DNA from: SAR202 cluster bacterium Io17-Chloro-G7
GTDB taxonomy: Bacteria > Chloroflexota > Dehalococcoidia > UBA3495
DNA length: 34,032 nucleotides
Direction of reading: 5' to 3'
Assembly: GCA_002817055.1 (NCBI GenBank)
Contig: MUCU01000070.1
Location: forward strand, 1-34,032
Shown here: one piece after another, positions 874-28,220 of the stretch
How positions within the stretch are numbered: position 1 is the first letter of the stretch
How the letters are laid out: the number at the start of each line of letters is the position of its first letter
The notes under the pieces: generated by a model
The model's database searches: none
Seen by the model: only the letters and a program-made list of their open reading frames with translations
What the model was told of the DNA's origin: nothing
Program-made: the position numbers and the translations under genes

Positions 874-946
874 CGGTTAACCTAGTCGTTCTTGAGTCAG
901 ACCGTTTTATTAACGCCGGATCATCGGCGGTTAGATAGGAGTCACA

Positions 947-1549
947 ATGAGCACTGGAGAGCAGCCAGCCCAGTCGCAAACACCGGAAGCAAATCAAGAA
1001 CCAGGACCTCAATCGGTCCAAGGCCCACGTATCAATGTGGGTCTGGTTATCGTCAATACGGGCAACGGCAAAGGGAAGACCACCGCTGCATTGGGGGTGG
1101 CGCTACGGGCATGGGGCCGAGGCCTGAAGGTAATCGTTCTCCAATTTATCAAGCACTCCACCGCCAACTTTGGCGAGCAACGCGCTGCTCAGAAGATGGG
1201 TATTGAAATGCGTGCTATGGGCGACGGTTTTACCTGGCGCTCCCAAGATTTGGACAAGACGGCTGATTTGGCCGTGGCCCACTGGGAGGACTGCAAAGAA
1301 ATCATCGCTTCCGGCGAGTATGACGTTATCGTCCTCGACGAGTTCACCTACCCCATGCATTACGGTTGGGTTGACACCAACGAAGTGATTGAGGTGCTGA
1401 AAAACCGGCCTGAAATGCAGCACATAATCATCACCGGGCGCCACGCCCCCGAGGCGTTGGTGGAGTACGCTGACTTGGTCAGCGAAATCCAGGTGGTCAA
1501 GCACCCCTATCAGAAAGGAATAAAAGCCCAGCCGGGCATCGAGTTTTAG
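947..1549 (+). CDS. cobO: Cob(I)yrinic acid a,c-diamide adenosyltransferase
   Basis: CobO/BtuR transfers the 5'-deoxyadenosyl group of ATP to the reduced corrinoid, forming the cobalt-carbon bond. The 200-residue product has the family's P-loop, TGNGKGKTT, at residues 38-46, an LDEFTYP segment around the middle, and the conserved TGRHAP and C-terminal [11 protein letters not shown] segments. The length is normal for the family. The ATG start is preceded by AGGAG with good spacing (about 936-940). The first 28 residues are Gln/Pro/Ser-rich and probably disordered. It lies 73 bp after cbiA and matches its product, so the two genes are probably one operon. Confidence 0.96.
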
Positions 1550-1593
1550 TGGGGTAAGTCATCTTAGCTCATTAGGGATTCCTGGGAATCACA

Positions 1594-2229
1594 ATGGAAC
1601 AGCTTGAATTTGAAAAAGTCTGGCAACTGCTTCACCAGCTAAAAGGGCAGATCGTCTTTATGCCTAATAGGGGGAAGCCCAACAAAATCGGGTCATTTGG
1701 ACCCAAGGGTATGACAAGAAAGCATCTGCGGCCGGGCGCTGATTTGGATAATGCTTCGGACGAAGACTGGATTACAGCTAGCTTAGTACCAAAGAGAGCA
1801 TTCGAAAATTGGTGGAAACGCCTAGTTCGGGAGGGTACATCGGAACAGAATTACGAATGGGGGATCGCGGTCGCGTGTCTGGCAAGGGTTCAAGGTCTTG
1901 GGGTTACTATAACGAAGGAGAAGAATCCGTTAACGCTTTCACTTGCTATTGGGTCTGAAGCGCTCTTTACCGCTACGGACGAAGATAATAATATGTGGGA
2001 GTTCGGCGACCCGGAACGAATCGTCGTCGACCCCAATATTTGTAGCGGGAACCCCACGATCCGTGGGACACGCATTATGGTCAGCAATATTCTAGGCATG
2101 TTCTCTGGCGGTTATTCCATCAACCGGGTGCTCAAAGCCTACCCTGAACTCTTTCGCCTGGACGTAATCTCTGCTTTGGAATATTCCAGTTGGGTGGTTG
2201 ACAGAGAGAAGGTGGTTGCCCCACGCTGA
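1594..2229 (+). CDS. DUF433-domain antitoxin (VapB45-like) with unrecognised N-terminus
   Basis: The C-terminal part (about residues 134-205) is a DUF433 domain: it contains the typical DPNICSGNPTIRGTRI segment and a helical end. DUF433 proteins paired with DUF5615 PIN-like proteins form VapBC45-like toxin-antitoxin pairs, and the next gene is exactly such a partner, overlapping this one by about 32 bp. The first about 130 residues are not recognised. They contain no obvious MerR or ribbon-helix-helix motif and include a stretch with conserved-looking Trp residues (about 62-73 and 90). The DNA is visibly more A/T-rich in places than the flanking cob genes, which fits horizontal acquisition. 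The antitoxin role is inferred from the domain pair. Confidence 0.75.
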   Translation: MEQLEFEKVWQLLHQLKGQIVFMPNRGKPNKIGSFGPKGMTRKHLRPGADLDNASDEDWITASLVPKRAFENWWKRLVREGTSEQNYEWGIAVACLARVQGLGVTITKEKNPLTLSLAIGSEALFTATDEDNNMWEFGDPERIVVDPNICSGNPTIRGTRIMVSNILGMFSGGYSINRVLKAYPELFRLDVISALEYSSWVVDREKVVAPR

Positions 2230-2626
2230 AATCTCGCCCGGTCTCGGGGTTCTGTTGGACCAAAATGTCCCCTTAGCGGTGGCAGCTTGGCTCAGAAGAC
2301 GTCAGTCAAAGTGGAATGTTTTCCACATTTTGGAGTTGGGGCTTGACGGCTGTACTGATCGTGAAGCGTTCGATTGGGCGCAGGCTAATCGGTGCGTCAT
2401 AATAACCTTCGATAATGATTTTGCCGACCGGCGTAGCTTTGCATCGCTCGAAAACTATGGAATCATTCTGCTGAGAGTCAGACCCACCACATCCGAGGAA
2501 GCACAGGGGGCTTTACGCAGGCTATTCGACCAGACCGAAGAGAAAGACCTTCAATGCTGTCTTGTGATTGTGGCCCGGTCGAGAATCCGCATTCGCCCTA
2601 GGACGGTTCAAGAGTTTGGTAGTTAA
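2198..2626 (+). CDS. DUF5615 PIN-like toxin (VapC45-like)
   Basis: The product resembles DUF5615 proteins, a PIN-fold group of predicted RNases acting as toxins. Visible acidic residues fit the PIN-like active site: Asp in LLDQNVP near the N-terminus, Glu/Asp in TDREAFDWA, and the acidic ITFDNDFAD segment. The reading frame opens with TTG at 2198 inside the antitoxin gene, but the family normally begins just before LLDQN, so TTG 2216 is also possible. The overlap implies translational coupling with the antitoxin. It ends 11 bp before cobT, so the pair sits inside the cobalamin operon. The toxic activity is inferred from the family and not shown by sequence. Confidence 0.75.
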   Translation: MTERRWLPHAEISPGLGVLLDQNVPLAVAAWLRRRQSKWNVFHILELGLDGCTDREAFDWAQANRCVIITFDNDFADRRSFASLENYGIILLRVRPTTSEEAQGALRRLFDQTEEKDLQCCLVIVARSRIRIRPRTVQEFGS

Positions 2627-2637
2627 GGGGTTGCTAA

Positions 2638-3732
2638 ATGACCCTATCCCAGTTGATCGACCAGACCATCGGCCAAATTTCCCCCCTAGACGAGCAGGCC
2701 ATGGCCGACGCCCGAGACCGGCAGGATACTTTGACCAAGCCGCTGGGTAGCTTGGGCCGCCTGGAAGAGTTGTCCGTGACCTTGGCCGGTATTTTCGGGG
2801 AATCCATCCCTAAAATTCGCCGCAAGACAGTCATTCTGGCCGCTGCGGACCATGGCGTGGTTGCGGAAGGCGTCAGCGCCTATCCTCAAGAAGTTACCCC
2901 CGCTATGGTAATGAATTTCCTGGCTGGCGGCGCAGCCATCAATGTGCTAGCGCGGCACGGGGGAGCCGAAGTTGTGGTCTTGGACGCTGGAGTGGCCGCC
3001 GACCTACCGCCAAACCCGGCCTTGCGTGCCGTGAAAGTCGCCAAGGGAACGGCCAACATAGCGGTGGGGCCAGCGATGTCTCGAGAGCAAGCCGTCCAGT
3101 GTCTGGAAACGGGAATCAAGACCGCTCAGGGACTGATTGAAGGCGGCACCGACCTAATTGCCTGCGGCGATATGGGCATCGGCAACACCACACCTTCCAG
3201 CGCCATCACTGCGGTTACTACCGGGGCCGATCCTTCGGTTACCACCGGTCGCGGCACCGGAATTGAGGATGAAGCCCTAGCCCATAAGATACAGGTGGTG
3301 CGCCGGGCGATTGATGTCAACAAGCCCGACGCCAAAAACGGTCTGGATGTTCTAGGTAAGGTGGGCGGCTTTGAAATCGGAGTCTTGGCCGGGGCAATGC
3401 TGGGCTGCGCCTCCCGGCGGCGTCCGGTGGTGGTTGACGGGTTTATTTCCGGGGCGGCTGCTCTAATAGCTTGGTCTCTGGCCCCCGGCGCAAGCCAATA
3501 CTTCTTTGCCTCGCACAAGTCCGTGGAGCCTGGCCATCAAATCGGCCTCGAAGCCATGGGTCTGACTCCATTGCTGGATATGGGTATGCGATTGGGAGAG
3601 GGAACCGGAGCTACCCTGGCCATGCACATCATCGAAGCGGCGGCAAAATGCTTGGCGGAAATGGCCACCTTCGCCGAAGCGTCGGTCTCCGAAAGATCGG
3701 ATAGCCAGGTAAACGCCGATGGCGAGGCTTAG
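2638..3732 (+). CDS. cobT: Nicotinate-nucleotide-dimethylbenzimidazole phosphoribosyltransferase
   Basis: CobT makes alpha-ribazole 5'-phosphate from nicotinate mononucleotide and a lower-ligand base such as 5,6-dimethylbenzimidazole. The 364-residue length is typical. Recognisable segments in order are the N-terminal KPLGSLG loop, AADHGV, EGVSAYPQEVT, the CGDMGIGNTT loop that binds substrate, and the C-terminal LGEGTGA in which Glu321 is the likely catalytic base. The ATG start follows the PIN-like gene by 11 bp. The next gene, cobS, uses the product, so the two steps are linked. The last about 20 residues are polar and poorly conserved in appearance. Confidence 0.97.
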   Translation: MTLSQLIDQTIGQISPLDEQAMADARDRQDTLTKPLGSLGRLEELSVTLAGIFGESIPKIRRKTVILAAADHGVVAEGVSAYPQEVTPAMVMNFLAGGAAINVLARHGGAEVVVLDAGVAADLPPNPALRAVKVAKGTANIAVGPAMSREQAVQCLETGIKTAQGLIEGGTDLIACGDMGIGNTTPSSAITAVTTGADPSVTTGRGTGIEDEALAHKIQVVRRAIDVNKPDAKNGLDVLGKVGGFEIGVLAGAMLGCASRRRPVVVDGFISGAAALIAWSLAPGASQYFFASHKSVEPGHQIGLEAMGLTPLLDMGMRLGEGTGATLAMHIIEAAAKCLAEMATFAEASVSERSDSQVNADGEA

Positions 3733-3755
3733 GTCTGATATCACTGCTGAGTTCG

Positions 3756-4583
3756 TTGCTGGCGGCCCTTACTTTTCTGACTGTATTCCCCATCTCCATC
3801 ATCCCTGGGGCCAAGCAATGGACTCCAACCCGGCAAGAACTAAGTAACTCCCGAGCTTATTACCCGGCAGTCGGCCTTTTGCTCGGCCTAATGCTGGTGA
3901 GCCTAGAGCGATGTTGCTCGGAAGTATTTCCGGATTACCTTTCAGCCGCCGTCCTGCTGGTGTCATTGATCGTCGTGAACCGGGGCCTCCATCTGGACGG
4001 TCTTATGGATACCTGCGACGGCATCTTCGGCGGCTTCACCCCCGAGCGGCGCTTAGAGATCATGCGCGACTCCCAAGTGGGCGCTTTTGGCGTCGCCGGG
4101 GCTGCCGGGGTATTGATCTTGAAATACGGTGCCCTGGTTTCGCTATTGGGGTTATCCGGCTCTGGGGTTCCAGACTCTGGGATTCAGTGGCCGCTGCTGA
4201 TTTTCCCCATGCTCTCCCGTTGGTCCATGGTTGTCGCTTTAGGCGCTTTCCCGTACGTGAGGAGTCAGGGTCTGGGTTCGCCCTTTCATCAAAGCGGGAA
4301 ACTCCGGCAAGGCGGGATTCTCTGGCCGACAGCGGCAGCGGGAATAACCGCCATCGCCGCATCTGTTCTGCTGGGGAGCATCGCCGGAGTTGGTATGCTG
4401 GTCGGCGCTTCATTAATTGCATGGGTGTTGGGCAGGAGTGTGGCCGCCAAGTTGGGGGGCTTGACTGGGGATAGCTACGGCGCAATCAACGAAGTGACCG
4501 AAATGTTAGCCTTGATGGCAGTGGTTGCCATAGCATCCCACGGTTGGGTGGAACCATTAACCAGCTTCCTGGACTTAACATAA
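3756..4583 (+). CDS. cobS: Adenosylcobinamide-GDP ribazoletransferase (cobalamin synthase)
   Basis: CobS joins adenosylcobinamide-GDP to alpha-ribazole(-phosphate), completing cobalamin in the membrane. The product is hydrophobic with several membrane spans and has the family signature LDGLMDTCDGIFGG followed by ERRLEIMRDSQVGAFG, whose acidic residues bind metal. Its length of about 275 residues is normal. The start is uncertain: the frame has no ATG or GTG after the upstream stop at 3702-3704, so TTG 3756 (or a CTG just upstream) is used, and no clear Shine-Dalgarno sequence is visible. It probably relies on translation coming from cobT, which ends 23 bp upstream. Confidence 0.94.
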   Translation: MLAALTFLTVFPISIIPGAKQWTPTRQELSNSRAYYPAVGLLLGLMLVSLERCCSEVFPDYLSAAVLLVSLIVVNRGLHLDGLMDTCDGIFGGFTPERRLEIMRDSQVGAFGVAGAAGVLILKYGALVSLLGLSGSGVPDSGIQWPLLIFPMLSRWSMVVALGAFPYVRSQGLGSPFHQSGKLRQGGILWPTAAAGITAIAASVLLGSIAGVGMLVGASLIAWVLGRSVAAKLGGLTGDSYGAINEVTEMLALMAVVAIASHGWVEPLTSFLDLT

Positions 4584-4640
4584 CACTGGGATGTGGGCCT
4601 GTGTCCGATTGCCGCAGGGATTCTCACGGAGGTACGGTTC

Positions 4641-7013
4641 ATGGCAGTGACTGAACAGCCATCGGGTCCATTGGCTGGTCTGCAAGTCTTGGATTTAACT
4701 CGCGGTATGCCCGGCGCTCTTGCCACCATGCTGTTGTCCGATTATGGCGCCGACGTGATAAAGGTAGAGCATCCCGCTGGCAATCCCTTGGAGCAGGACC
4801 CCGCATACCGAGTTTGGAATCGGAGCAAGAGAAGCGTGGCAGTTGACTTAAAGCAGCTCAGCGGATTGGCGGCGTTTCAGGATCTAGCCAGACAAGCGGA
4901 TGTAATCCTGGAGTCATTTCGTCCCGGTGTGGCTGAGCGTTTGGGCGTTGGTTACGCTCAGGTGAGTGGTGTCAACCCCCAAGTCGTCTATTGTTCTATT
5001 ACAGCCTACGGTCCCACAGGCCCTTGGGCGCAGCGACACGGGTACGAGAGCCTTGTCGCCGCCGCCTCGGGCATCATGACCGAGCAGGTTGGCGTGAGCG
5101 AGGGCCGCCCGATGTTTTGCTCCATACCTTTGGTCTCTCTGGGAACATCTACCCTGGCGTTGCAGGGCATACTTGCGGTCCTGCATGTTCGGAATGTTAG
5201 TGGGGTTGGCCAAAGGGTTGAGACCAGCATGTATCAGGGGTCCGTGGCCATACGAGCTCCCATGATGCCCATCGTCGATAACCTGACCTCACTGTCGATG
5301 AACAATATTCAACCCCAAGGCGGGTTGCCTGCCTACCGGATGTACCCTTGCGCCGATGATAGGTGGGTGCACATTGGGTGCTTGAGCAGGGAGTTTTGGG
5401 ACAAGCTGGCGGTTGCGTTGGATGTGATGGACTTGGCCATTCAACCCGAGTTTGCTGCTGCGCCAACAGGGTGGACCAACCACCAAGATCGGGAACTGGC
5501 GATTGAGTTGATCGGTCAACGTCTCCGAGAGCATCCTCGCAGCCACTGGCTTGAGGTTTTGGAGGCTGCGGATGTGCCTGTGGCCCCTGTGCTGACAACC
5601 CAGGAATATATGGACCTTCCTCAAGTGCGGCACAACGGTCTGGTGAGCGAGGTGAACGACCCGGTGTTGGGGGAGATGGAGCAAGTGGGTTTGGTCTTGG
5701 GGTTTTCCGAGACGCCGGGCAAGGTTAAGGCACCGGCGCCGTTGCGGACCCAAATTAGTGGCGAAGAACAGGCAGTATGTTTCCAAAAATATCCCGAATT
5801 GAAAAGACGCGGTTCTCAAGCAAACGCGCCAGGACATCCCTTGGATGGGATAAAGGTGTTGGACTTTTCTTCGCTTATCGCCGGACCCCTGGGTCCGATG
5901 GTCCTTTCGGACTTGGGCGCCGATGTAGTCAAGGTCGAGCCAATCAGTGGGGAATTGGCGAGGAGTCTGCCCTTTTTGCTCCTTGCCGGTAATCGGGGCA
6001 AGAGAGGCATCGCCATCGACATGAAAGCTCCTCAAATCAAGGAAGTCCTCACCCGCTTGCTAAAGTCCTGCGACGTTGTTGTGCACAACATGCGGGTGGG
6101 AGTGGCGGAGCGACTGGGCATAGGCTACGAGGCGGTCCGCAAACTCCGGCCAGACGTCATCTACCTCCACAGCAGCGGCTACGGACCCACCGGGCCCGAA
6201 AGCCTAAAGCCTGGATTCGACCCGTTGTTCCAGTCCATGTCCGGAATCACAGCCAGGCAAGGGGCTGGCGCTCACCATCCCGTCTTCCTCAGGACACCGG
6301 TGTGCGACGATACCAACGGAATGCTGCTCGCCGTGGCGGCTCTGATGGCCATTTACCACCGGGACCGTACGGGCCAAGGGCAAAAAGTCGACTTGAGCCT
6401 TCTTAATACCGGCGCATTCGCCAACTCCGGGCACTTCATGCGGTATTCAGGCAGCCCCGGGCGTCCCTTGGCCGACGAAGGACTGCTTGGCATGAGCGCC
6501 GTCAAACGTATCTATCCCACCGCCGAGGGCTGGATTTTGCTCGCATGTCACCAACCCGAAGAATGGGACCGGCTCAAGAAGTGCTTGGGCTGGTTGGGTG
6601 ACCAATACCAATTTGACGAAGCAAATGCCATGCACCCGTGGGACGACGAACTTTGCCTCGAATTGGCCCAAGAGTTTAGTCAGCGCCCGGCGGTGGAATG
6701 GGAGGAAATGCTGATCCCTGCGGGGGTGCCCTGCGTAAAGGTTGCGGAAAGCAATCTAGAAGGGTTCTACGATAACCCTCAAGCCCAGGAAATGAACATG
6801 GTCGACTATCAAGATCACCCGGAGTACAGCAATTTGCGCCAAGTGGGTGTGCAAGTCACCTTCTCTCTGACTGGGTCGGCGGTTAAACCAGCCGCACCGT
6901 TGATCGGACAGCATAACCTCGAAATCCTGACGGAGTTGGGGTTTAGCCAACAGGAAATCTCCAATATGCAAGCCGCTGGTTGTATTTCTGCTGGCCCGTC
7001 AATTCAGGCATGA
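4641..7013 (+). CDS. Tandem CaiB/BaiF (class III) CoA-transferase, two fused domains
   Basis: Class III CoA-transferases move CoA between carboxylic acids through an aspartyl-CoA thioester. This 790-residue protein contains two full family domains, about residues 8-385 and 405-780. Each begins with a LxGLQVLDLT or LDGIKVLDFS type strand and a LSDxGADVxKVE segment, and each has a GxGQxV turn. The chosen ATG at 4641 has GGAGG about 8 bases upstream; the GTG at 4593 would add 16 unlikely residues. Aligned to YfdW/formyl-CoA transferase, the catalytic Asp is kept in the second domain (Asp556 in CDDTNG) but is Ser166 in the first (PLVSLG). The substrate is unknown. It lies between cobS and cbiB, but no cobalamin step needs such an enzyme, so a cobalamin role is doubtful. 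Confidence 0.93.
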   Translation: MAVTEQPSGPLAGLQVLDLTRGMPGALATMLLSDYGADVIKVEHPAGNPLEQDPAYRVWNRSKRSVAVDLKQLSGLAAFQDLARQADVILESFRPGVAERLGVGYAQVSGVNPQVVYCSITAYGPTGPWAQRHGYESLVAAASGIMTEQVGVSEGRPMFCSIPLVSLGTSTLALQGILAVLHVRNVSGVGQRVETSMYQGSVAIRAPMMPIVDNLTSLSMNNIQPQGGLPAYRMYPCADDRWVHIGCLSREFWDKLAVALDVMDLAIQPEFAAAPTGWTNHQDRELAIELIGQRLREHPRSHWLEVLEAADVPVAPVLTTQEYMDLPQVRHNGLVSEVNDPVLGEMEQVGLVLGFSETPGKVKAPAPLRTQISGEEQAVCFQKYPELKRRGSQANAPGHPLDGIKVLDFSSLIAGPLGPMVLSDLGADVVKVEPISGELARSLPFLLLAGNRGKRGIAIDMKAPQIKEVLTRLLKSCDVVVHNMRVGVAERLGIGYEAVRKLRPDVIYLHSSGYGPTGPESLKPGFDPLFQSMSGITARQGAGAHHPVFLRTPVCDDTNGMLLAVAALMAIYHRDRTGQGQKVDLSLLNTGAFANSGHFMRYSGSPGRPLADEGLLGMSAVKRIYPTAEGWILLACHQPEEWDRLKKCLGWLGDQYQFDEANAMHPWDDELCLELAQEFSQRPAVEWEEMLIPAGVPCVKVAESNLEGFYDNPQAQEMNMVDYQDHPEYSNLRQVGVQVTFSLTGSAVKPAAPLIGQHNLEILTELGFSQQEISNMQAAGCISAGPSIQA

Positions 7014-7093
7014 AACCCACGGCTCTTGGCATGAATCACGCGACGAAACTCAGACTGTCGGCCCGCGCCCGGGGCGGAGCGGCGTTGTAGCTC

Positions 7094-8035
7094 ATGCTGG
7101 ACAGTACCGACGATCTGGCGGTTTTGGCGTTGGCCGTGGTGATTGACTTGGCCCTGGGAGAGGCGCCAGCCAGGTTTCATCCGACGGTTTGGATGGGCCG
7201 CAGTGTGGATTTTGCCCAGAAACTAGCGCCCAGAACGGGCCCGGGCGCATTGATGGCCGGGCTAGCCATAGCCATTGTGCTCCCGGCTTTCTGGGCGGCC
7301 GGTGCTTTTTTCGCCGCAAAGCTGCTTCATGACGCGCACCAAGTGGCCTATATCATCGTCGGGGCAATACTCCTCAAATCCACCTTCGCACTCAAAATGC
7401 TCCACGAAGCAGCGGCGGAAGTGCGCCAACCTTTGGCCGACGGCGATGTCGAGCAGGCCAGGTTGGGTTTGCGCTCACTGGTGAGCCGGGACCCTTCCGC
7501 GCTAACTCCGGAGCAGACGGCGGCGGCAACGGTCGAGTCGGTCTCGGAAAACATCGCCGACAGCATTGGCGGACCCTGGCTATTCTTCGCCCTCTTCGGC
7601 CTGCCTGGCGCATTTGCCTACCGGGCCATCAATACGCTGGATAGCATGATTGGGTATCATGGGGAGTACGAACTATTGGGCAAGGCATCGGCCCGGTTGG
7701 ATGACTTGATCAACCTGGTTCCGGCGCGGATGTCCGGGCTGTATCTGGTGCTGGCCAGCGCTTTATTGCCCGGCCAACGGGTCGCAGGTGCCTGGCGCAT
7801 AATGTGGCGGCACCACAACCGCACCGAAAGCCCAAACGCCGGGTGGACCATGAGCGGTATGGCGGGGGCTTTGGGGGTGGAACTGGAGAAGGTGGGACAT
7901 TATCGTCTGGGTGAAAATACCCGTCCCGTGGCAGTCGAGGATATTACCCAGGCCATAAGGTCGATGTACGTGGTAGCGGTATTTGCCTTGGCAACCGCCT
8001 TGGCTCTGGTCTATGGTAGAAGCCTACTATTTTGA
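7094..8035 (+). CDS. cbiB: Adenosylcobinamide-phosphate synthase (membrane)
   Basis: CbiB/CobD attaches aminopropanol (or its phosphate) to adenosylcobyric acid. The 313-residue product matches the family in length and has its hallmark segments: LALGEAPARFHPTVWMG near the N-terminus, TVESVSENIADS, AYRAINTLDSMIGY with a KASARLDDLINLVPAR continuation, and NAGWTMSGMAGAL. Several hydrophobic stretches indicate an integral membrane protein. The ATG at 7094 lies 80 bp after the CoA-transferase. The following PLP enzyme probably supplies the aminopropanol phosphate, so the pair forms a functional unit. Confidence 0.95.
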   Translation: MLDSTDDLAVLALAVVIDLALGEAPARFHPTVWMGRSVDFAQKLAPRTGPGALMAGLAIAIVLPAFWAAGAFFAAKLLHDAHQVAYIIVGAILLKSTFALKMLHEAAAEVRQPLADGDVEQARLGLRSLVSRDPSALTPEQTAAATVESVSENIADSIGGPWLFFALFGLPGAFAYRAINTLDSMIGYHGEYELLGKASARLDDLINLVPARMSGLYLVLASALLPGQRVAGAWRIMWRHHNRTESPNAGWTMSGMAGALGVELEKVGHYRLGENTRPVAVEDITQAIRSMYVVAVFALATALALVYGRSLLF

Positions 8036-8140
8036 CCACAACGTCTTTTCGACTGTCCGAGGAGCCTGCCCGACCAATCAGGGTTTCCCAACAATCAGTC
8101 GGCGGACAAGGTTATGAGAATCCAACAATGAAATTCCAAC

Positions 8141-9271
8141 ATGGATAACGCCGGAAATTCTTCGCCTGTTCGCCCAACCCACGGTGGAGCGAAACCCGCC
8201 GAGCTACGAGCATTGGGCTTAAAGCCTGAGGATGTACTGGATTTCAGCGCCAGTGTCAGCCCCATCGGGGCTCCGATAGGTGTGTGGGAGGCGCTAAATC
8301 GGGTCAATCTCGCAGCCTATCCAGACCCCCAATGTTTGTTGCTTCGAGAAGCTCTATCCGGACATCTATCCGGCAATCAATCCGATATTGTTGAAACCGG
8401 ACATATTCCGCCCAGCCGTATCCTGGTTGGTAACGGTTCCACCGAGATAATCCACCTTTTGGCTAGGGCCTACCTTTCGCCTTCCCGACCCGAGATCGCC
8501 AACACTGCTCTCATCTTGACCCCGACTTACGGTGAGTACGCGGGTGCTTGTGGACTTATGGGGGCCTCTATCAAGTGCTTGAACGGCCTTGATCAGCCCG
8601 ACTTCAAGTGGGACCTGAAACTTGCTGCCAAGAGAATATCTCAAGAGAAGCCGAGTCTGATATTTCTTTGTAACCCCAACAACCCCACCGGCGTTTTCCT
8701 GGGACAACAAGAAGTCTCAGCCTTGGCTCAGGCTGTTGGGGAGGCTGGAGGTCTGTTGGTGGTGGATGAAGCCTATTTGTCCTTCGTCGACGAACCCTGG
8801 GATTCATTGCCACTTACAGACCGTGAACCAGTGATTCTGGTTCGCTCCATGACCAAAGACTACGGCCTAACGGCCCTGCGCCTCGGCTACTCCGTGGCCT
8901 CGGAAGAAGTGACCACGAAGCTGGCGGCGCTACAGCCCGACTGGAGCGTCAATGGCTTTTCCCAAGCCGCCGGATTGGCCGCTTTGGCCGACACCGGTTA
9001 CCTGGAACGGGCCCGCTGGGCTGTGAGTGAAGCAAAGGAGTTCCTGGCTACAAAGTTGACCGCGCTGGGATTCCATGTGCCGCCCGCTTCCGCCAATTTC
9101 CTGCTGGTTAAGGTGGGAGATGCCGCATCTTGGCGGGACAAGCTCCTGGGCCAAGGCTTGGTGGTGCGAGACTGTACTTCCTTCGGCTTGCCTGAATACC
9201 TCCGGCTGGGAATCCGCTCATTGCCCGATTGCCAGAGGTTGGTAGAGGTGATGACCCGGATAGCCCAATAA
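8141..9271 (+). CDS. cobD: Threonine-phosphate decarboxylase-like PLP enzyme (CobD/HisC family)
   Basis: This is a fold-type I aminotransferase-family protein of 376 residues. The N-terminal HGG...DFSASVSPIG segment is typical of CobD/CobC, which makes aminopropanol phosphate from threonine phosphate; HisC proteins usually lack it. The PLP-binding Lys is Lys239 in SMTKDYGLTALRLGY. The CNPNNPTG loop and the VVDEAYLSF segment that holds the cofactor-contacting Asp are present, as is a C-terminal Arg in LRLGIRS. Placement next to cbiB supports the cobalamin role. Histidinol-phosphate aminotransferase activity is the main alternative, since the two groups are close in sequence. Confidence 0.87.
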   Translation: MDNAGNSSPVRPTHGGAKPAELRALGLKPEDVLDFSASVSPIGAPIGVWEALNRVNLAAYPDPQCLLLREALSGHLSGNQSDIVETGHIPPSRILVGNGSTEIIHLLARAYLSPSRPEIANTALILTPTYGEYAGACGLMGASIKCLNGLDQPDFKWDLKLAAKRISQEKPSLIFLCNPNNPTGVFLGQQEVSALAQAVGEAGGLLVVDEAYLSFVDEPWDSLPLTDREPVILVRSMTKDYGLTALRLGYSVASEEVTTKLAALQPDWSVNGFSQAAGLAALADTGYLERARWAVSEAKEFLATKLTALGFHVPPASANFLLVKVGDAASWRDKLLGQGLVVRDCTSFGLPEYLRLGIRSLPDCQRLVEVMTRIAQ

Positions 9272-16189: not shown

Positions 16190-18657
16190 TCACCTGGCCG
16201 CTATGACCCAAAGGGAGCGACCGTCGCTTATGAACTCTACGGTTCCGTCTTGGTCCGTACGGAAAATGGCATTTGCACCGACGGCCTCCGCCAGCCTATC
16301 CAGAATTTCCGGTCTTGGGTGGCCGAACCGGTTGGTTGCGCCCACCGGTATCACCGCAACCGAAGGATCCCCCCCGCCAAAAATCGAGGGGTGGTCGATG
16401 TAAGACTGCCGTGATGGGCCACCTTCAAAACGGCACTGTTTATTTTTGGAGAGCTGCGTAATAGCCTGTTTTCGGCCTCTGATTCAATGTCCGATGCCAG
16501 CAAAAAACTCACGTCGTCGTATACCAGCCTGAGTACCACTGCATGGTTGTTCCGACTTCCTAGATTGGCTTGGGCCGACGGATTAAATACCTGCAAGCTA
16601 ACCCCGGACTCAAGTAAAACCTGCTGCCCGGCCTCTGCTGGAATTTCCATTGGATCCTCCCGGTCAAGCATGCTACGCCACTGAGGGTACATGGCGCTTT
16701 GGATACTCTGGGGGTTTTCTGGGCTAAATAACACCGAAGCCACGTCATAGCGGTCCAGCACCTCAAGCAGTCCCCGGCTATGGTCCGAGTCCAAGTGTGT
16801 GAGTACCACCATGTCCAGGCTGCGGTCTCCCTTAGGCAGGTGCCTTGCCAGTGCGGAAGTAGCGCTTTCAGCACCAGGGCCGCCGTCCACCAGAATTTGC
16901 TTACCCTCAGGCGTGACGATCAAGACGCTGTCGCCTTGGCCCACATCGAAGAAATACACGTGCAGTTTCCCATCGACCCCCGCGAAAATGCGCGTCCAGA
17001 TAAATACAGCGACTACGACGAAGGCAATAGCAACGGAAAAGTTGGGCAGAGCTGTACTGCTAACTCCAGACCGACCGGCTCCGGGTTCCGTTGGTTGTTT
17101 TAACAGCGTGCCCGCAAGTGAACCTTGGGGTAACCGGTAGGCAAAGCCCGTTCTTAGAAGAAGCAAGGCTCCAATGATCAAAAACCAGGCCCATACAAGC
17201 CAGCTGCCTATCCACCCGCCGGAAACCGCCAAGGCGGGGAAACGGGATACCAGTTCCAACAAATAAGATAATGGCAGCCAGGTGATCCAACCGAATATCT
17301 GGGCAATGGCCGGGTGGAACAACCCGCCCAAAGATGTGGCCAGGGTCCCCAGCAGTATGAAAGGCAAAGCGGGCAACGCCAAGGCCGTGGCTAAGATACC
17401 TAAGATTGGAATGCGATCGAAATTGAAACCCACCAATGGCCAAGTCGCCATAGTCGCGCCCAAAGAAACTATAAATGACGCTGCTGTCCATCTCAGGATA
17501 AAGCCCAACCAATGGCTTCCCTGGAACGGTTTGGCTGCGGTCCAGCCTGCGATGGCTGCGCCTACCCTTTCCTGCAAGCGTAGGACCATCGCAATGCCCG
17601 CCATGGCGCCGAAGCTCAATTGGAAGGAGATTTGTTGCAGCACTTGAGGGCTGTGGGCCGTCATTGCGGCAGCGCTCAAGGCTAATGCGGGAAGGATTCC
17701 CCGAGGTCGACCAAGAACTACAGCGACCAAAAACACTGTGCCCATGATAGCGGCCCGGATTGCCGATGGAGGGGCTCCGCTTATTAGCACGTAGAACCAG
17801 ATTAAAGCAAAAGGAAATATTAAATAGGCGTTCCAGCGCTTGCCCAAGATACCGGCCCCCAAGGTCAAAGCAATTAACATTACTGAGCCGACGTGCAGGC
17901 CCGATATGGCTAACAGGTGCGACGTGCCGGTGGAACGGAACTCTTCTACAAGATCGGACGGCAACCGGCCCCGCTTACCTAAGAACAGAGCTTGAGCAAT
18001 TGCGGATTGCGGGTCCGGAAGAGCGTCTACCAGGTTCTCAGACATACGTCCCCGCAGATCAAACACTCGGCCACGCCAGCCTCCTGCTTTCTCGGCGCTC
18101 GGTGCGGTTAGCACAGCGTTTCGAGAGTAAATTACGCCTGAAATCCCTTGGTTGGCCAAATACGCCGGGTAATCGAATTCGGCCAAGGCGCGAGGGGTGC
18201 TCGCCAAGCCTTCAATCAAGAGGTGATCGCCGTAGCGGAAATAAGGTGGCTCCCGCCTCAAAGCCTGCGTAGGGGATGGCTGCGCATAAACCAGTAGCTT
18301 GGATGAGAAGGGCTGATCGCCGACACCTAGATCGATGACCTCTGATTCGATAACCAGTTTGATGAATTGCCCGGTGGCTTCAGGGTCATTTACGACGGTT
18401 CCACGAACAGTCACTGTTTGGTTGTCCGGGGTTGCCAGGGACGGCGCCGGGCTATCGTTGAATTCGGCTCTTACAATAGCTACAAGAACGACGACAGCCA
18501 GCACCACAGGCCAAAGCGGCCAGCGGTGAATGCGGCTAAAAATACCTGCGCTAAGCGCCGCCAATAGCAGGAGGCTTAGCGGTAGCAAAGCAGGGTCCAA
18601 CCGGAGAGCGACGAAAGCCCCGGCCAACCAAGCTGCTGCAAAAAGTCCCAGCTTCAT
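16190..18657 (-). CDS. comEC: ComEC/Rec2 DNA-uptake channel, frameshifted near the C-terminus
   Basis: ComEC forms the inner-membrane channel for transforming DNA. The frame from ATG 18657 encodes an N-terminal membrane part and DUF4131-like region, the Competence domain with its multiple helices and HLLAISGLHVG motif, and a metallo-beta-lactamase-like domain with HLDSDH (residues 621-626). The frame ends at 16351 right after KVAHHGSLTSTTPRFLAGG. The expected C-terminus (DPSVAVIPVGATNRFGHP, then about 40 more residues) continues in the next frame to a stop at 16190-16192. One extra G in the G7 tract at 16369-16375 would restore a normal 822-residue protein. Either the assembly lost a base, or the gene is slippery or recently broken. 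Confidence 0.9.
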
Positions 18658-18796
18658 CTACCCCTCCGGCTCCGGGTTGCCGCCTAGAGCCTCTGTCGTG
18701 ACATTATTGAAGCGACCTTCGAGGGCTCGGCCCATCTTCTGGCGTGTTCAGAGGCTATCGACTCTCTGCGGCGGCTTTAACGTTGATGTTGCATGA

Positions 18797-18811
18797 AAGG
18801 TTGTTAACCTT
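18797..18811 (-). terminator. Short hairpin just after comEA, weak terminator candidate
   Basis: AAGGTT and AACCTT form a perfect 6-bp stem with a three-base loop, starting four bases after the comEA stop on the - strand. No clear T run follows, so it may only weaken read-through into comEC. The rest of the 158-bp gap up to the comEC start shows nothing else. Confidence 0.3.
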
Positions 18812-18815
18812 AGTT

Positions 18816-19559
18816 TCAGGCTGTTGCCAATTCCCGTATCGCCTCATAGGTGGCTGGGCCGATGCCGGAGACGTTGGTTATTTCCTCCACAGAATGGAAC
18901 CCGCCGTTTTTCTCCCGGTAGCTGACGACGGCGGCGGCCCGGACTTGGCCGATATTGGGCAGCGTTTCCAAAAGCTCAACGCTTGCTGTGTTGAGGTCTA
19001 TCAGACCATCACAAATCCCCAACGCAACCGTACCCGTTGTTTGATTGTCTTGGAAGCCAGTGGTGGCATCGGCTGAGGGCAACGACTCACCCAACCGGGG
19101 AATGTGGTAATGACCTTCATCCTGGACTCGCAAAGCCAAATTCACGGATTCCTTTTGAGCGTCGATAGTGGCGCCACCGGCGGCGGTAATGGCATCGGAG
19201 ACACGGTCTCCCGGTGGCAGCGCATATACCCCGGGATTAACCACCGCTCCGGTTACATACACTTTCATCTCTTGGGGAAGGGCGGTGGCGGCCCGGTTGC
19301 TTGCGTTTAGAGAGTTGGGAGTCGGCGTGCTGGTTGACAGCAGCACCTGGATGGGAGCGTTGTCGTCACTGCGCAAGAAAAGGACCACCGCTCCCAAAAT
19401 AAGGGAGGCGACCACTGCCCCGGTAATTCCCGCAGCCAGGGTCCGAATGTTCAATAATGAAGAATCGCCACGGTCGGCGACCCCGGATTTTCTTCCTCCA
19501 TCGGGGAGGTCAATACCGTTCGGGGTTGGGCCCCTATCCCTTTGCTCATCATTGGCCAT
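18816..19559 (-). CDS. comEA: ComEA-like DNA-binding competence protein
   Basis: ComEA binds incoming double-stranded DNA at the cell surface and passes it to ComEC. The 247-residue protein has a short cytoplasmic N-terminus, one membrane helix (about residues 42-68), a low-complexity Thr/Ser/Pro stretch, an SLBB domain (about 97-158, from MKVYVTGAVVNPGVY), and a C-terminal pair of helix-hairpin-helix motifs (about 183-245: DLNTASVELLETLPNIG and ITNVSGIG). This domain order is that of known ComEA proteins. ATG 19559 is used. It is the first gene of the - strand run comEA-comEC-rph-htrA and is divergent from ilvE. Confidence 0.93.
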   Translation of the reverse strand: MANDEQRDRGPTPNGIDLPDGGRKSGVADRGDSSLLNIRTLAAGITGAVVASLILGAVVLFLRSDDNAPIQVLLSTSTPTPNSLNASNRAATALPQEMKVYVTGAVVNPGVYALPPGDRVSDAITAAGGATIDAQKESVNLALRVQDEGHYHIPRLGESLPSADATTGFQDNQTTGTVALGICDGLIDLNTASVELLETLPNIGQVRAAAVVSYREKNGGFHSVEEITNVSGIGPATYEAIRELATA

Positions 19560-22736: not shown

Positions 22737-25700
22737 TCATTGGTTGGAAGAGCCGTTTCCCTGCCCGTTGGAAACCAGCAACAAGTCGCCTTGCCGGGTA
22801 AGCGTATTATCGGTCACCATTTGGCTTATTAGGGGTTCAACCGTGCTGCGTATTTCGTTGTTGACCCTGCCGAAACCCAGCAGCTTCACCGCAGCGCCGG
22901 TAATGTCTTGGAAGGCTATGCCGTAAGACGCAGCTACAACCCGGCGCACTGCCATACACAACTCTTCAGGGCTGACGAGATCGATTTTCCGCGAGGACGC
23001 CGGCAACTCGCTCCGGTCCCGGAGAGTGGGTTCGGCCATGGTGGACCGCCACAGAAATTCCCCCTTACGCACGATATTGCCAGACCCCACGCCATTTTCT
23101 ATGGCCCGGTCAATGGCTTGCTGATATCGACGCACCCGGCGAATTCCGGCTGCGTCGGCGATACGGCGGGCCACCTCGGTCTCGTGTACCGGGCTTTCTT
23201 CGTCCACAACCTGCACCACCCACAAAGCCAATGTCGGGTCAGCTTCTATCGGGAAGGTGGTGTCCGCGATTGTGGCCTTCGGGGTCGCCAGCCGGTACTT
23301 GGCGATAGCGTCGCCATCCGGTACGGCGGCGACGCTATCGCGCTGGATGGGCGAAGAATCAAGGGCGCCGACCTGTTCGGTTGCCTTGCGGTCTTTGGAA
23401 GACTCTATGGCCGTAGCGGCCCTCTGGAGCTCTCTGTCTGGATTATTAAACCAGTCAGTGCTCCAAATGTGGTGCATTTGCCAACCAAGGCCGTCCAAAA
23501 CCTGCTCCCTCAAGCGGTCCCGGTCCCTTGATGACCTGGAATTGTGGTAGGTTTCCCCGTCCGTTTCTATGCCCATCAAGTAGCGGCCGGGTTGGACCGG
23601 GTCTACGATTGCCAGGTCTACCCAATGCCCGTCCGCGCCGACTTGCTGGCGGAGTTCGTAGCCCGACGCGGTCAGCGAGTGGGCTACAGCTCGTTCCAAA
23701 GAAGAGCCTGCTTCGGCGGTATGATCCGTAGTTTTTTCCGCATCTCCTGTTGCGGCATAAGCCAAGAAAGCCTTCAGTGCCGTGAGACCCGGAGAAGACG
23801 TGCGGCTAACGTCTATGTCCTCAGAGGATAGATTAGTGAATACCTCACAACGGCGGCGCGCCCTAGTAATCAACACGTTCAAGCGGCGCTCGCCGCCATC
23901 CCAATTCAATGGTCCGAAATTCATGGCCACGTTGCCGTCACCATCCCTGCCATATCCAATACTGATAAAAATTACGTCTCGCTCGTCACCTTGCACCGTC
24001 TCCAGGTTTTTGACGAAAAACGGTTCATCGGGGTGGGCGGCGAAAAAGCTTTCTTTGGAAGGGTCTCCTCTCCGGAACTTCTCCACAGCCTCTTGGATTG
24101 CTCGCATTTGGGCCACGCTGAATGCGGCGACCCCCAAGGTTAGATAAGGGAATTTTGAAGCGTGTTCCATGACGGCGGCGGCCACTGCCTCGGCCTCCAG
24201 CAGGTTTGTCCGGGTCGCTCCCCTATCGTAGACGGTGTCCGGCAGCAAGTTGCACTTGAGTCCTCCTTCCCTCCGCTCGGCATCGGGACTAGGGAAAACC
24301 ACCAAGCTATTATTGTAAAATTCCCGGTTGGAAACGGTTATCAGCGACTCGTGGCGGCTGCGGTAATGCCAGCGCAACACCCGGTCCGGAGCATTCTGGG
24401 CGGCGAATAATCCCAAGACGCTTTCAATGTCGGCGGTGCTGTTTTCCTTATCGTCTTCTCTGCCCTGGGTCATAGTGTCGAACAAACTGCTGGGCGGCAA
24501 CTGTTGGCTGTCTCCGACCACCACGGTCTGGCCAGCCCGGAGGATCGCGCCGAAAGCGTCCACCGGCTTCACTTGGCTGGCCTCGTCGAAAATGACCAGG
24601 TCAAACTTGAGGCTCCCCGGACTTATGTAGGTGGCAATGGATAGAGGGCTCATCATGAACACTGGCTTAATCGCTTGGACGGCGTTTCCGGCCCGGGCAA
24701 TCAGTTGTCTGATTGGGAGGTGTCGACTTCGCTTTTGAAATTCCCTCTTTAACACTGCCAACTGGCCGCCGCCGTCCTGCCTGGGCAAACCCTCCCAATG
24801 CGCCAGCGCCAGCCTAGACCGGTTGTGCTCCAAGGCCAAGGTGTCCAATTCCCGGAATTGCTGGATTAGCCGACCGTGGTTGACGCCGTCAAACCCCCGC
24901 AACGCCTCCCGCTCCGCCAGCGCTTTTTCCAAGATCGTCTCGAACCAAGCCAGCAAAAAAACGTCCATCAAATGAGAGACTGCTTTGTCCCAACTCTCCG
25001 CCAGCGGGAGGACAGCGTCCAAGCCGACATCTAAACAGGAATCCGAAATGTTGTTGAAGCCAACCATATCGTGAATTTCGTTTATTCGTCCGTCCCATAG
25101 CTCCAACGTAGACTGTTGGTCTGAGAAAGGCTGGTCTTCAAGACCTTGGCCGCTGGGATAGCGCTTGGTAATGTCCAAGTCCATCGCTTCAATAACTGCG
25201 TCCGCATTGCTCCGGTAAAGAGCGATGGCCTCCTCAAGGGCGGCGGACGATTCGATCAAGCCTTGGGTCGACCGCCCCTCGGCCAAGAATTCGACTATTT
25301 CTCCTGGCAGCGTGCCGGCATCCGCATCGTCCAAAAGCTGCCAAATCCAGTTGGCGCAATTGGCAAGCGTGTCCCAATCGGAGCTTTCACTATGCCACTT
25401 TGAGCCGAACACGCCCCCAAGCAGAGCATCGCCGGCCGATATGACTGGGTGCAATCGCTGCCCTTCGGCGACGGCGTCCAACATTTCTAACTGGGCAGCG
25501 AGTCCTGAAGGGGGAGCACCCTGGCACAACCCGGCTAAACGCTTCTTCGCCTCCCGGTAATCGGTAGAGAGCAAACGCCACGGTTGGCGCCCTTTGGTGT
25601 CCAAAAGCCATCGGAGACCGACCAGGTCTAATCCCCAAGAATCCGGCTTCAGAATGCTCTGGTATTGTGCCCGCAGTTTCGAGAATTTGCCGCCGGATTC

Positions 25701-28220
25701 CAGCAGAGAACGTATCTCTTCACGGTGGGTTCGCCATTCCCCGGCGTGCAATTCCAGACCGGCAAGGTCAGGCGCTTCCAAGACACGGCTCACAGCCACG
25801 ATTAACCGGTTGGCTTCGCTGATGTTGGAGGCGGCTGGCAACCTCATGGAGTCGGCCAATTGCTGCTCTGTTTTAATCACTGATTCCAAGGCGGCTCGAA
25901 CCGGAGGCAAAGCGCTTTTCAGGCGGTCCAGGTCCGAGGGCAGCATGATCCGGTGACGCGTCCCCCAAAACGGGTGCTCATGGGGCACGCCGATTATGGC
26001 CAACCGAGCTTGCAATTCCGCCACACGTGCCTGCCGGTTTCGGAAGTCGCCAGCCGACCATGTCTTCATCGAGAGTAGGTCCAGTTTTGGTAGTTGGACC
26101 CCCTCTGTGCGTTGTCGAAGCAACGCCAACTCGCCGTAGGCCACGTAGGGACTAATGCCTGTTTCATCCACCGGGGCGTTTATTTCCTCGCAATACAAAT
26201 TCAATCTTTCCCTCAGTGCGGTCAGCGCGTCCAGGTCCGCTTCAACCTGGCCCAACCTGGGACGCCCCAACTCGAGGGTTCTTTCGAGTTCATCCAGCAC
26301 AGTCTTCTTCGTGGTCTTATGGCTATGAAGCTCCAGACAGGTGTCGCCCAGCCCGATGCCGTCCAGACGTCGCTTGACCACCTCCAAGGCGGCCATCTTT
26401 TCCGACACAAATAGCACGGTGCGGCCATGGCCCAGCGCTTCCGCAATCATGTTGGTGATGGTCTGGGACTTGCCGGTGCCCGGCGGCCCTTGAACGATTA
26501 GGTTGCGGCCATCGTTCACGTCGACCAACACCAGAGTTTGGGAACTGTCGGCATCCACCACATGATGAACTTGGCTGGGCGGCAAGTACTGGTCCAAATG
26601 CTCGTCGTCGTTGATTGACGGGGCTGGTTCGCTGAAACCTTCGTGGAGCAGAGAGCCGATAATGGAATGTTCTTCAGGCTTGTCGCTGTCCGGCCATATC
26701 GCCGTATCCAAGTCCCTATACATCAAGAACTTGCTGAACGAGAAAAACCCCAAGACAATGCTGCCGGGATCCACCGACCACTCTGGAAATTCTTCAACTG
26801 ATTTCGCGATCGCCCTGAGATAGGCTACGATGTCCAAATCCTCTGTGTCGGGCAATTCAGGCAGTTCTACTCCAAACTCGTTTCGGAGCCTTTCCCGCAA
26901 CGAAAGGTTGTCTCCCGGTTCGTCACCGGTGTGACGCAATTGGAAGCGAGTCCTAACGTTTGTCCGGTCCAATGCCACCGGTACCAGCACCAAAGGGGCC
27001 CTTCTCCCTTCATCGTTGTCGCCTTCCCGCCAGGTCAGCATCCCCAAGGCTAGGAATAGGGTATTAACGCCCTGTTCCTGAATGAAAGTGTTGGCCAAGT
27101 AGTAGGTTGCCAGTAGCCTGGACTGTAGTTCTTGGGACGACGAGGAAGTTTGGAGCCTTGAATCGGTGTGCCGAGGGGCGAGACCGCCACTCGTTTCTTC
27201 CTCCGTTGGTTGTCCCAAGTTGTCGTCAATTTCCCCTCCCGCCTCTCTAAGTACCGATGGGACAAAGGATATAGCCTTCCCTTCTGCCGTTAGCTGGCGA
27301 TAGACTTCGCTGGGAACCTCGTCAACCATCTCCAGCCCTCTGGTGCGCAACAGGCGATAATTGAGCAGGGGGTTCCGCAGGCCCAAGTCAAGTAATTCTT
27401 TGCGGGCTGACTCCAAGCCGTTGCGAATGGCGGAAGCGGAAAGGGCGTGTGCCTCCTCGGCCTCCTCAAGGGCGCTAACTAGAGGCGCTAATTTAGCATT
27501 CTCAGAGTTCCCGGACAAGTAATTAACAATTCCGCTGTCTAGCAAGCCGCTTTCCACCTGCTTGTGTAAACCTCGCACCCATTGCGTCAGGTGGGCAATT
27601 GCTACCCAGTCCGACGCCGGACCGCTCCACTGGGGCCCGAACAACTCTTCTCCCAACGAACCGTATTGATTGATGGTCTCACGATAACGGCGTGCCTCAG
27701 CAACGGCGTCAATGAGTCTTAATCGTGTTTCCAGGTCTGAGGGACGCGGCGGATGAAATAAAACGGCCAGTTGTTTCTCGGCCTCACGGTAATTACCGGA
27801 TAACTTGCGGGTCAAACCTTCGCCTTTGGCGGCCAGGGTTTCACGCAGCCCTCGCAAGTCTTGTTCCCAAGCTTCAGGTACGATGTACCGATCAAATTCG
27901 CGGTGAACGCGTGTCAGGGCTGCTCCCGCGATGAGCAACGCGCCCAGTCCGTCTCTTTGGGTCTGCCATTGTTGAGAACCCAGGGCGACGCCGTGCAAGT
28001 CGGGTGCTTCCAGCGCCCGCTGTGCAGCCCGGCGCAATGCCTCCCGCTCCACTTGGCCTGTTGGCGTTGGCAGATTGAGGGCAGTGGCTAACTCTTGGGC
28101 CGCAAGTTCGAGGGTTACCAGTAACGGTTGTTTTTGTGCCATGGCGGTTGACAACCTGTGTCCAGACCGAGGGTTATTTGACATAAACGGTACCACACAG
28201 CCGTGTATTCGGCCATGCAA
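22737..28220 (-). CDS. Giant SF1 helicase with DUF4011, Vsr-like nuclease and DUF3320
   Basis: This 1827-residue protein combines, in order: an N-terminal helical unit (33-265); DUF4011 (about 268-480, with ELLDLGLRNPLLNYR); the SF1/Upf1-type helicase with Walker A GPPGTGKS (578-585); a second copy of the N-terminal unit (about 777-1010); Walker B DEAS (1212-1215) with VVGDSQQLPP; motif VI near 1445-1457 (RLNVLITRARRR); a Vsr/DUF559-like endonuclease (about 1500-1600) with acidic E1552-T-D-G-E1556; and DUF3320 (about 1655-1710). All helicase motifs look intact. The ATG at 28220 has AGGGGA 7 bases upstream. Such helicase-nuclease fusions are usually linked to defence or repair; here it stands alone, so a specific role is inference. 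Confidence 0.9.
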   Translation of the reverse strand: MHGRIHGCVVPFMSNNPRSGHRLSTAMAQKQPLLVTLELAAQELATALNLPTPTGQVEREALRRAAQRALEAPDLHGVALGSQQWQTQRDGLGALLIAGAALTRVHREFDRYIVPEAWEQDLRGLRETLAAKGEGLTRKLSGNYREAEKQLAVLFHPPRPSDLETRLRLIDAVAEARRYRETINQYGSLGEELFGPQWSGPASDWVAIAHLTQWVRGLHKQVESGLLDSGIVNYLSGNSENAKLAPLVSALEEAEEAHALSASAIRNGLESARKELLDLGLRNPLLNYRLLRTRGLEMVDEVPSEVYRQLTAEGKAISFVPSVLREAGGEIDDNLGQPTEEETSGGLAPRHTDSRLQTSSSSQELQSRLLATYYLANTFIQEQGVNTLFLALGMLTWREGDNDEGRRAPLVLVPVALDRTNVRTRFQLRHTGDEPGDNLSLRERLRNEFGVELPELPDTEDLDIVAYLRAIAKSVEEFPEWSVDPGSIVLGFFSFSKFLMYRDLDTAIWPDSDKPEEHSIIGSLLHEGFSEPAPSINDDEHLDQYLPPSQVHHVVDADSSQTLVLVDVNDGRNLIVQGPPGTGKSQTITNMIAEALGHGRTVLFVSEKMAALEVVKRRLDGIGLGDTCLELHSHKTTKKTVLDELERTLELGRPRLGQVEADLDALTALRERLNLYCEEINAPVDETGISPYVAYGELALLRQRTEGVQLPKLDLLSMKTWSAGDFRNRQARVAELQARLAIIGVPHEHPFWGTRHRIMLPSDLDRLKSALPPVRAALESVIKTEQQLADSMRLPAASNISEANRLIVAVSRVLEAPDLAGLELHAGEWRTHREEIRSLLESGGKFSKLRAQYQSILKPDSWGLDLVGLRWLLDTKGRQPWRLLSTDYREAKKRLAGLCQGAPPSGLAAQLEMLDAVAEGQRLHPVISAGDALLGGVFGSKWHSESSDWDTLANCANWIWQLLDDADAGTLPGEIVEFLAEGRSTQGLIESSAALEEAIALYRSNADAVIEAMDLDITKRYPSGQGLEDQPFSDQQSTLELWDGRINEIHDMVGFNNISDSCLDVGLDAVLPLAESWDKAVSHLMDVFLLAWFETILEKALAEREALRGFDGVNHGRLIQQFRELDTLALEHNRSRLALAHWEGLPRQDGGGQLAVLKREFQKRSRHLPIRQLIARAGNAVQAIKPVFMMSPLSIATYISPGSLKFDLVIFDEASQVKPVDAFGAILRAGQTVVVGDSQQLPPSSLFDTMTQGREDDKENSTADIESVLGLFAAQNAPDRVLRWHYRSRHESLITVSNREFYNNSLVVFPSPDAERREGGLKCNLLPDTVYDRGATRTNLLEAEAVAAAVMEHASKFPYLTLGVAAFSVAQMRAIQEAVEKFRRGDPSKESFFAAHPDEPFFVKNLETVQGDERDVIFISIGYGRDGDGNVAMNFGPLNWDGGERRLNVLITRARRRCEVFTNLSSEDIDVSRTSSPGLTALKAFLAYAATGDAEKTTDHTAEAGSSLERAVAHSLTASGYELRQQVGADGHWVDLAIVDPVQPGRYLMGIETDGETYHNSRSSRDRDRLREQVLDGLGWQMHHIWSTDWFNNPDRELQRAATAIESSKDRKATEQVGALDSSPIQRDSVAAVPDGDAIAKYRLATPKATIADTTFPIEADPTLALWVVQVVDEESPVHETEVARRIADAAGIRRVRRYQQAIDRAIENGVGSGNIVRKGEFLWRSTMAEPTLRDRSELPASSRKIDLVSPEELCMAVRRVVAASYGIAFQDITGAAVKLLGFGRVNNEIRSTVEPLISQMVTDNTLTRQGDLLLVSNGQGNGSSNQ

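Follow-up and report, generated by a model that had tools for sequence, protein, structure and literature searches.

Why should a helicase carry the same domain twice, once inside its motor and once at its N-terminus? The question is raised by a gene in the window, the 34,032-nucleotide stretch analyzed here (contig MUCU01000070.1 of SAR202 cluster bacterium Io17-Chloro-G7). Judged from its sequence, the product joins a PDC-S37-like DUF4011 SF1 helicase to a Vsr-type nuclease on its C-terminal side (Table 1). Pfam finds the helicase domains AAA_11 and AAA_12, and the features of SF1 (Walker A, the DEAS form of motif II, and RecA2) are all there. The DUF3320 region is a winged helix-turn-helix according to the assignment in the available text of PMC3710099.

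Translation probably begins at an internal ATG (residue 27), as inferred from close relatives, such as P0003 and P0006, in which the copy starts at residues 4-7. The gene caller that produced the database version of the protein (P0001) placed the start at codon 265, an ATT at 27426-27428 (-), so the N-terminal copy is missing from that entry.

Table 1. Features of the helicase-nuclease gene; residues are numbered from the TTG and coordinates are those of the window
Feature	Residues	Coordinates	Strand	Basis or remark
Giant DUF4011 SF1 helicase-nuclease ORF		22737..28220	-	1827 uninterrupted codons; 1827 aa from TTG, 1801 aa from ATG 28142
N-terminal copy of head domain	27-268	27417..28142	-	Offset alignment, profile match, AlphaFold2; in 40/152 proteins
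DUF4011 (PF13195)	275-445	26886..27398	-	Pfam, E 1.1e-37
Walker A of RecA1	578-585	26466..26489	-	Sequence motif
Outgoing helices of predicted arm	637-773	25902..26312	-	AlphaFold2 secondary structure; weak coiled-coil fold matches
Inserted (older) copy of head domain	774-1012	25185..25901	-	Offset alignment, profiles; domain in 62/80 genome loci listed
Returning helices of predicted arm	1013-1166	24723..25184	-	AlphaFold2 secondary structure
Walker B / motif II (DEAS)	1212-1215	24576..24587	-	Sequence motif
RecA2 (AAA_12)	1276-1463	23832..24395	-	Pfam
MTES_1575 Vsr-type nuclease domain (PF18741)	1509-1605	23406..23696	-	107.5 bits, cut-off 38.2
DUF3320 (winged-helix region)	1659-1696	23133..23246	-	Pfam

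Evidence for the duplication

The first-pass annotation had described a gapless repeat at a constant offset of 744 residues, with 67 identities counted in 185 positions. The repeat is there; the count is better given as 79 identities in the 233 positions (33.9%) that pair residues 33-265 with 777-1010. The best ungapped BLOSUM62 segment at this offset scores 350, compared with 42 at the runner-up offset and 54 for the best of 100 shuffles of the whole protein, and over these residues none of 1259 other offsets exceeds 34 identities. BLASTP returns 130 bits (E 5e-40), with 87 identities in 268 positions and 6 gap positions, these at the far end. When the 40 available N-terminal copies are set as a profile against the inserts of the same 40 proteins, hhalign returns a probability of 100 (E 1.6e-70, 243 columns), far above background: five column-shuffled controls reached no more than 0.16 and a reversed profile 2.25. 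The internal duplication is confirmed. The placement given in the annotation also holds: one copy precedes DUF4011 and, since Walker A starts at residue 578 and DEAS at 1212, the other sits between these two motifs.

Age and distribution of the copies

The distribution of the domain was examined in 152 family proteins. The sample began with the best 120 of 1497 homologues and 29 more from later searches, from which P0001 was dropped and to which the full protein of the window and three loci (L038, L039, and L048) were added. A domain search placed 83 of these proteins in class A, with one copy, 40 (that of the window included) in class B, with an N-terminal copy plus insert, and 29 in class C, where the domain is nested in itself. 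As the listing follows similarity to the window, and classes B and C were the targets of the later searches, the counts are not natural frequencies. The annotation had presented the two-copy architecture as unfamiliar among described members. It is common to 40 of the proteins examined, and the event behind it is old and not private to the window's gene.

Every one of the 152 proteins has the insert. Of 80 genome loci spread over many phyla, 62 also show the domain among the matches listed, and four of the 62 have it nested (L038, L039, L048, and L046, the last split over two frames). No N-terminal copy was found in any of the 80 among the matches listed (ORFs of at least 400 aa). The insert is thus the older of the two, being in all of the proteins and most of the loci, whereas the N-terminal copy was seen in none of those loci. 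Five long DUF4011 relatives (L060, L061, L062, L068, and L072) have a homologous insert (hhalign 97.8 against N-terminal copies, 98.9 against class A inserts), but their longer N-terminus is unrelated to the N-terminal copy (hhalign at most 0.16). By eye, the N-terminal 300-400 residues of these five appear transglutaminase-like, with a conserved Cys and His.

Origin of the N-terminal copy

Then there is the question of how often the second copy arose. In a tree of 160 copies, all 40 N-terminal copies form one clade (SH-aLRT 96). The 13 included in a 43-row tree do the same (95/85), and in a thinner tree of 126 rows a branch with support 78 separates the nine N-terminal copies from the other rows. 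The branching order of the N-terminal copies broadly parallels that of the inserts from the same proteins, which fits a single old duplication followed by descent. On a core tree, built from the helicase and nuclease parts, the label B needs one change; the B clade itself has a support of only 8, and class B together with six class A rows a support of 98. The N-terminal copy probably arose once.

It does not follow that it arose within the gene that now carries it. The copy might have been captured by recombination from another family member, and two results would suit such a history: the placement of the N-terminal clade beside the inserts of its own proteins is not firm (support 45 in the 160-copy tree), and six class A inserts cluster in that tree with those of class B (four of the six were among the rows of the 43-row tree). 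Against capture, the N-terminal copies of the 126-row tree fall in one clade, of support 98, that also takes in the inserts of class B, those of close class A proteins, and the main nested group, and a joint clade of N-terminal copies, class B inserts, and close class A inserts is not rejected by the AU test on the 43-row tree (p 0.39). I consider capture unlikely. The donor was an insert of this subfamily, perhaps, though not provably, that of the same gene. The annotation's claim that the helicase copied its own insertion domain to its N-terminus thus stands as to direction, from insert to N-terminus, but the trees are compatible with a donor in this very gene or in a close relative.

Conservation and a basic patch

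At 34 positions the same residue occupies at least 70% of N-terminal copies, of class B inserts, and of class A inserts. No fixed differences were found, in that no position is at least 80% conserved in both N-terminal copies and class B inserts with different residues. The 34 include a cluster around domain positions 91-118 (W91, L102, R111, L113, Y117, and R118), overlapping a patch, positions 102-126, that is strongly basic. The net charge of the patch has the same mean, +3.9, in N-terminal copies and in class B inserts, being positive in 39 of 40 and in 40 of 40, respectively; class A inserts average +5.2 (57 of 59 positive) and the inner class C copies +4.8 (20 of 21). Elsewhere the net charge of the domain averages -10 to -12.5. 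The positions shared with the inserts and the retention of the patch suggest that the N-terminal copy is probably functional.

Even so, both copies change quickly. Compared with 19 selected class B relatives, the protein of the window averages 48.5% identity in the N-terminal copy and 41.4% in the insert, as against 84.2% at the start of RecA1, and the two copies are the fastest-evolving of nine regions measured. Fast evolution of both would also fit loose constraint. Taking the duplication, the single N-terminal clade, and the conservation together, I regard this part of the account, read from sequence comparison, as very probably correct.

Domains nested within themselves

Copying of the domain to the N-terminus is not unique, for the domain is inserted into itself in other lineages. 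In class C proteins a whole copy stands between the first and the second half of another. P0127 goes further: its residues 522-1258 read half, half, whole, half, half, three layers in all, and the identity of the four pieces to the innermost copy is 59.6, 71.8, 63.8, and 49.2%, dropping outward. The halves are not always matched, P0044 being without one second half, and P0106 and P0128 having one second half beyond the number of first halves. Nested inserts were also seen in P0048, P0051, and P0055, which lie on contigs of megabase size, and this speaks against assembly error as the source of nesting. The additional material is evident in the spacing from Walker A to DEAS, which is 625-648 in class A (n=83), 627-639 in class B (n=40), and 862-1141 in class C (n=29).

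Nesting likely had several independent origins. In the 126-row tree, outer and inner copies of one lineage cluster together in P0044/P0127 (support 100), L038/L039/L048/P0149 (98), P0124 (97), P0051 (97), and P0104 (80). P0106/P0128 differ in that their outer copies cluster with the inserts of class A. The main nested group has its inner and outer copies in separate clades, a pattern as after one older event. On the core tree, class C as a label needs 11 changes, gains or losses, at least nine of them forced by starred branches. Gene conversion could mimic independent origins. Three single-copy proteins (P0103, P0082, and P0096) were noticed in or beside the main nested clade, and P0103 looks like a nested form minus its inner copy.

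In 27 of 29 rows the outermost first half breaks off at domain position 96-122 (model residue 97-123), a site within the short helices 97-126 that AlphaFold2 predicts for the N-terminal copy alone and that hold the conserved basic stretch. In 28 nested proteins scored, the patch of the inner copy averages +4.7 and is positive in all 28; the interrupted outer patch averages +0.6 and is still slightly positive in 15 of 28, the positions of the outer pieces being approximate. Nesting thus removes the patch only in part, since in P0127 a basic stretch persists on the second-half side of the outer layers.

A bolder reading, less likely than not, is that of a self-inserting head. The ends of the domain would be adjacent and its tip region would be able to take a whole copy, so that the arm grows like an extension ladder. 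Different lineages would independently have tuned the length of the arm (as many as three layers, the half-units being unequal in number in P0044, P0106, and P0128) and, through the N-terminal copy, the number of tips.

A predicted arm and its head

The terms arm and head come from structure prediction. AlphaFold2 models residues 27-1226 with a mean pLDDT of 80.5 and a pTM of 0.40 (model number is residue minus 26). The helices of the two copies are nearly alike when shifted by 744 residues (30-44/774-788, 63-83/807-827, 137-159/881-903, and 179-198/923-941), so prediction gives the two regions matching patterns of helices. Modeled alone, the N-terminal copy (residues 27-276) is almost entirely helix, at pLDDT 90.4 and pTM 0.79. 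Long predicted helices flank the insert on both sides, and model residues from about 610 to 1140 give weak fold matches to the hairpins of Rad50, SMC, MukB, JetC, chemoreceptors, and dynein stalks (best Foldseek E 0.014). The head domain alone matches nothing at E of 0.001 or below in PDB or BFVD. The predictions suggest a coiled-coil arm set in the first RecA domain, with the all-helical copy of about 240 residues as its head. I infer the position of the tip, the geometry of the arm, and contacts between copies from the order of helices and the weak fold matches (pTM 0.40).

By this weak fold similarity the predicted arm would work like those of SMC, Rad50, and JetC, as a long helical hairpin with a terminal part. 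Theirs are set in an ABC ATPase and that of the window's protein in an SF1 RecA domain, and the likeness seen is one of fold.

Known relatives and genomic context

Among the closest known families is PDC-S37, a candidate defence family of PADLOC (PDLC05009), a name not found in the literature searched. Residues 263-1814 of the window's protein match positions 4-1544 of its 1550-position model with 2009.5 bits, the model having no stated cut-off. As the match starts at residue 263, the N-terminal copy lies outside the best stretch. The model has the length of a single-copy protein, and the class A protein P0016 fits it from its residue 7.

Two anti-phage families are also similar. The window's protein scores 1545.5 bits against ProA (NCBIfam NF058533), above the cut-off of 1500, and NCBI's rule would assign it that name. 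Its best stretch starts at position 338 of the 1903 in the model, with a second stretch also counted; the single-copy P0016 starts at 351, and P0020, of class B, scores 1489, under the cut-off. With Hhe, a DUF4011 protein (NF042953 / PDLC02194), it has the helicase and nuclease core in common, at 985.2 bits (NCBIfam) and 751 bits (PADLOC). The first of these scores lies under the NCBIfam cut-off for Hhe, which is 2000.

The giant MTES_1575 proteins of Anantharaman et al. 2013 (PMC3710099), as the available text describes them, likewise combine winged helices with an SF1 helicase and a Vsr-type nuclease in a single polypeptide, but they additionally carry HEPN and a transglutaminase-like domain. 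Pfam lists no HEPN family in the window's protein at E up to 1, a search that divergent HEPNs can escape. The available portions of PMC3710099, PMC10250203, and PMC12409362 describe no internal duplication, and titles and abstract openings in a literature search on nested or duplicated domains offered no case of a domain nested within itself.

In Pseudomonas aeruginosa, according to the available text of PMC10250203, a defence hotspot has a DUF4011 gene at its flank. In the window, Pfam assigns the 20 neighboring ORFs scanned to cobalamin synthesis, a trypsin-PDZ protease, a ComEC-like protein, helix-hairpin-helix, glycerol-3-phosphate acyltransferase, acyl-CoA dehydrogenase, and other housekeeping functions. 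No convincing defence neighbors were found, PADLOC giving only partial, generic-domain matches to two of the ten ORFs from 13966 on, and ARAGORN found no tRNA in the window. With such neighbors, the defence role of the gene rests on family resemblance, which makes it a candidate. Two other features of the neighborhood deserve mention. Within the cobalamin cluster (13-9271), the protein encoded at 4593-7013 (+) has two CoA-transferase family III matches, and at 16351-19559 (-) the ComEC-like gene adjoins an SLBB/helix-hairpin-helix gene, which is presumably ComEA-like.

A possible role for the second copy

I propose that the head is the end of a helical arm and that the basic patch is its distal tip, which would touch nucleic acid, the duplex either ahead of the motor or behind it. 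The N-terminal copy would be a second tip-bearing finger that, together with the arm, clamps DNA or its junctions. Before the nuclease cuts, the two tips might hold the duplex on either side of the motor or form a closed clamp around it, and the fingers, moved by ATP, could couple engagement of DNA to the nuclease. Nesting would copy the head into its own tip region, producing a longer arm that carries one intact tip outward. The DNA-contact mechanism, drawn from the patch and the predicted arm, I find plausible but slightly more doubtful than not. The explanation as a whole (a PDC-S37-like helicase with the head of its arm duplicated, tips that bear on nucleic acid, and nesting that lengthens the arm) seems to me evenly poised.

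A different idea is that the head makes homotypic contacts. Arms of single-copy proteins would meet head to head, and the N-terminal copy would be a partner in cis, closing a ring within one molecule. Arm tips do join in several of the SMC, Rad50, JetC, and MukB proteins, whose arms are prominent among the weak fold matches, and a second similar head in the same chain is just what a cis pseudo-dimer needs. The AlphaFold2 models, at pTM 0.40, carry no information on contacts, and the strongly basic charge of the conserved patch is a poor fit with the pairing of like with like, and I think a cis ring decidedly unlikely.

Still less credence can be given to the N-terminal copy as a decoy, or an extra sensor surface, deployed against phage inhibitors and not a mechanical part. 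That both copies are the most divergent regions of the protein is what an arms race over them might leave, but the patch is conserved and the two copies are without fixed differences. A PHROG search with either copy matched no family, although an inhibitor need not resemble the copy. It is scarcely credible that the N-terminal copy persists as a neutral remnant, or that it goes untranslated with codon 265 as the real start, for while the gene caller chose that codon, six close class A relatives are without the copy in their database versions, and the N-terminal copy has the lowest GC3 of the nine regions (0.574), codon 265 is ATT, the copy occurs in 40 of 152 predicted proteins, it is more alike than the insert across the 19 chosen relatives, and its patch is positive in nearly all cases.

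Returning to the proposal of two tips on nucleic acid, its interest lies in the family. Giant DUF4011 helicase-nucleases, candidate enzymes of anti-phage defence, are widespread, and the portions of the literature available gave no account of their recognition of DNA. The patch, which single-copy inserts and the N-terminal copy conserve and which is weaker in interrupted outer copies, marks the part of these proteins that probably contacts the substrate. And repeated self-nesting of a protein domain, if true, would be an unusual mode of protein evolution.
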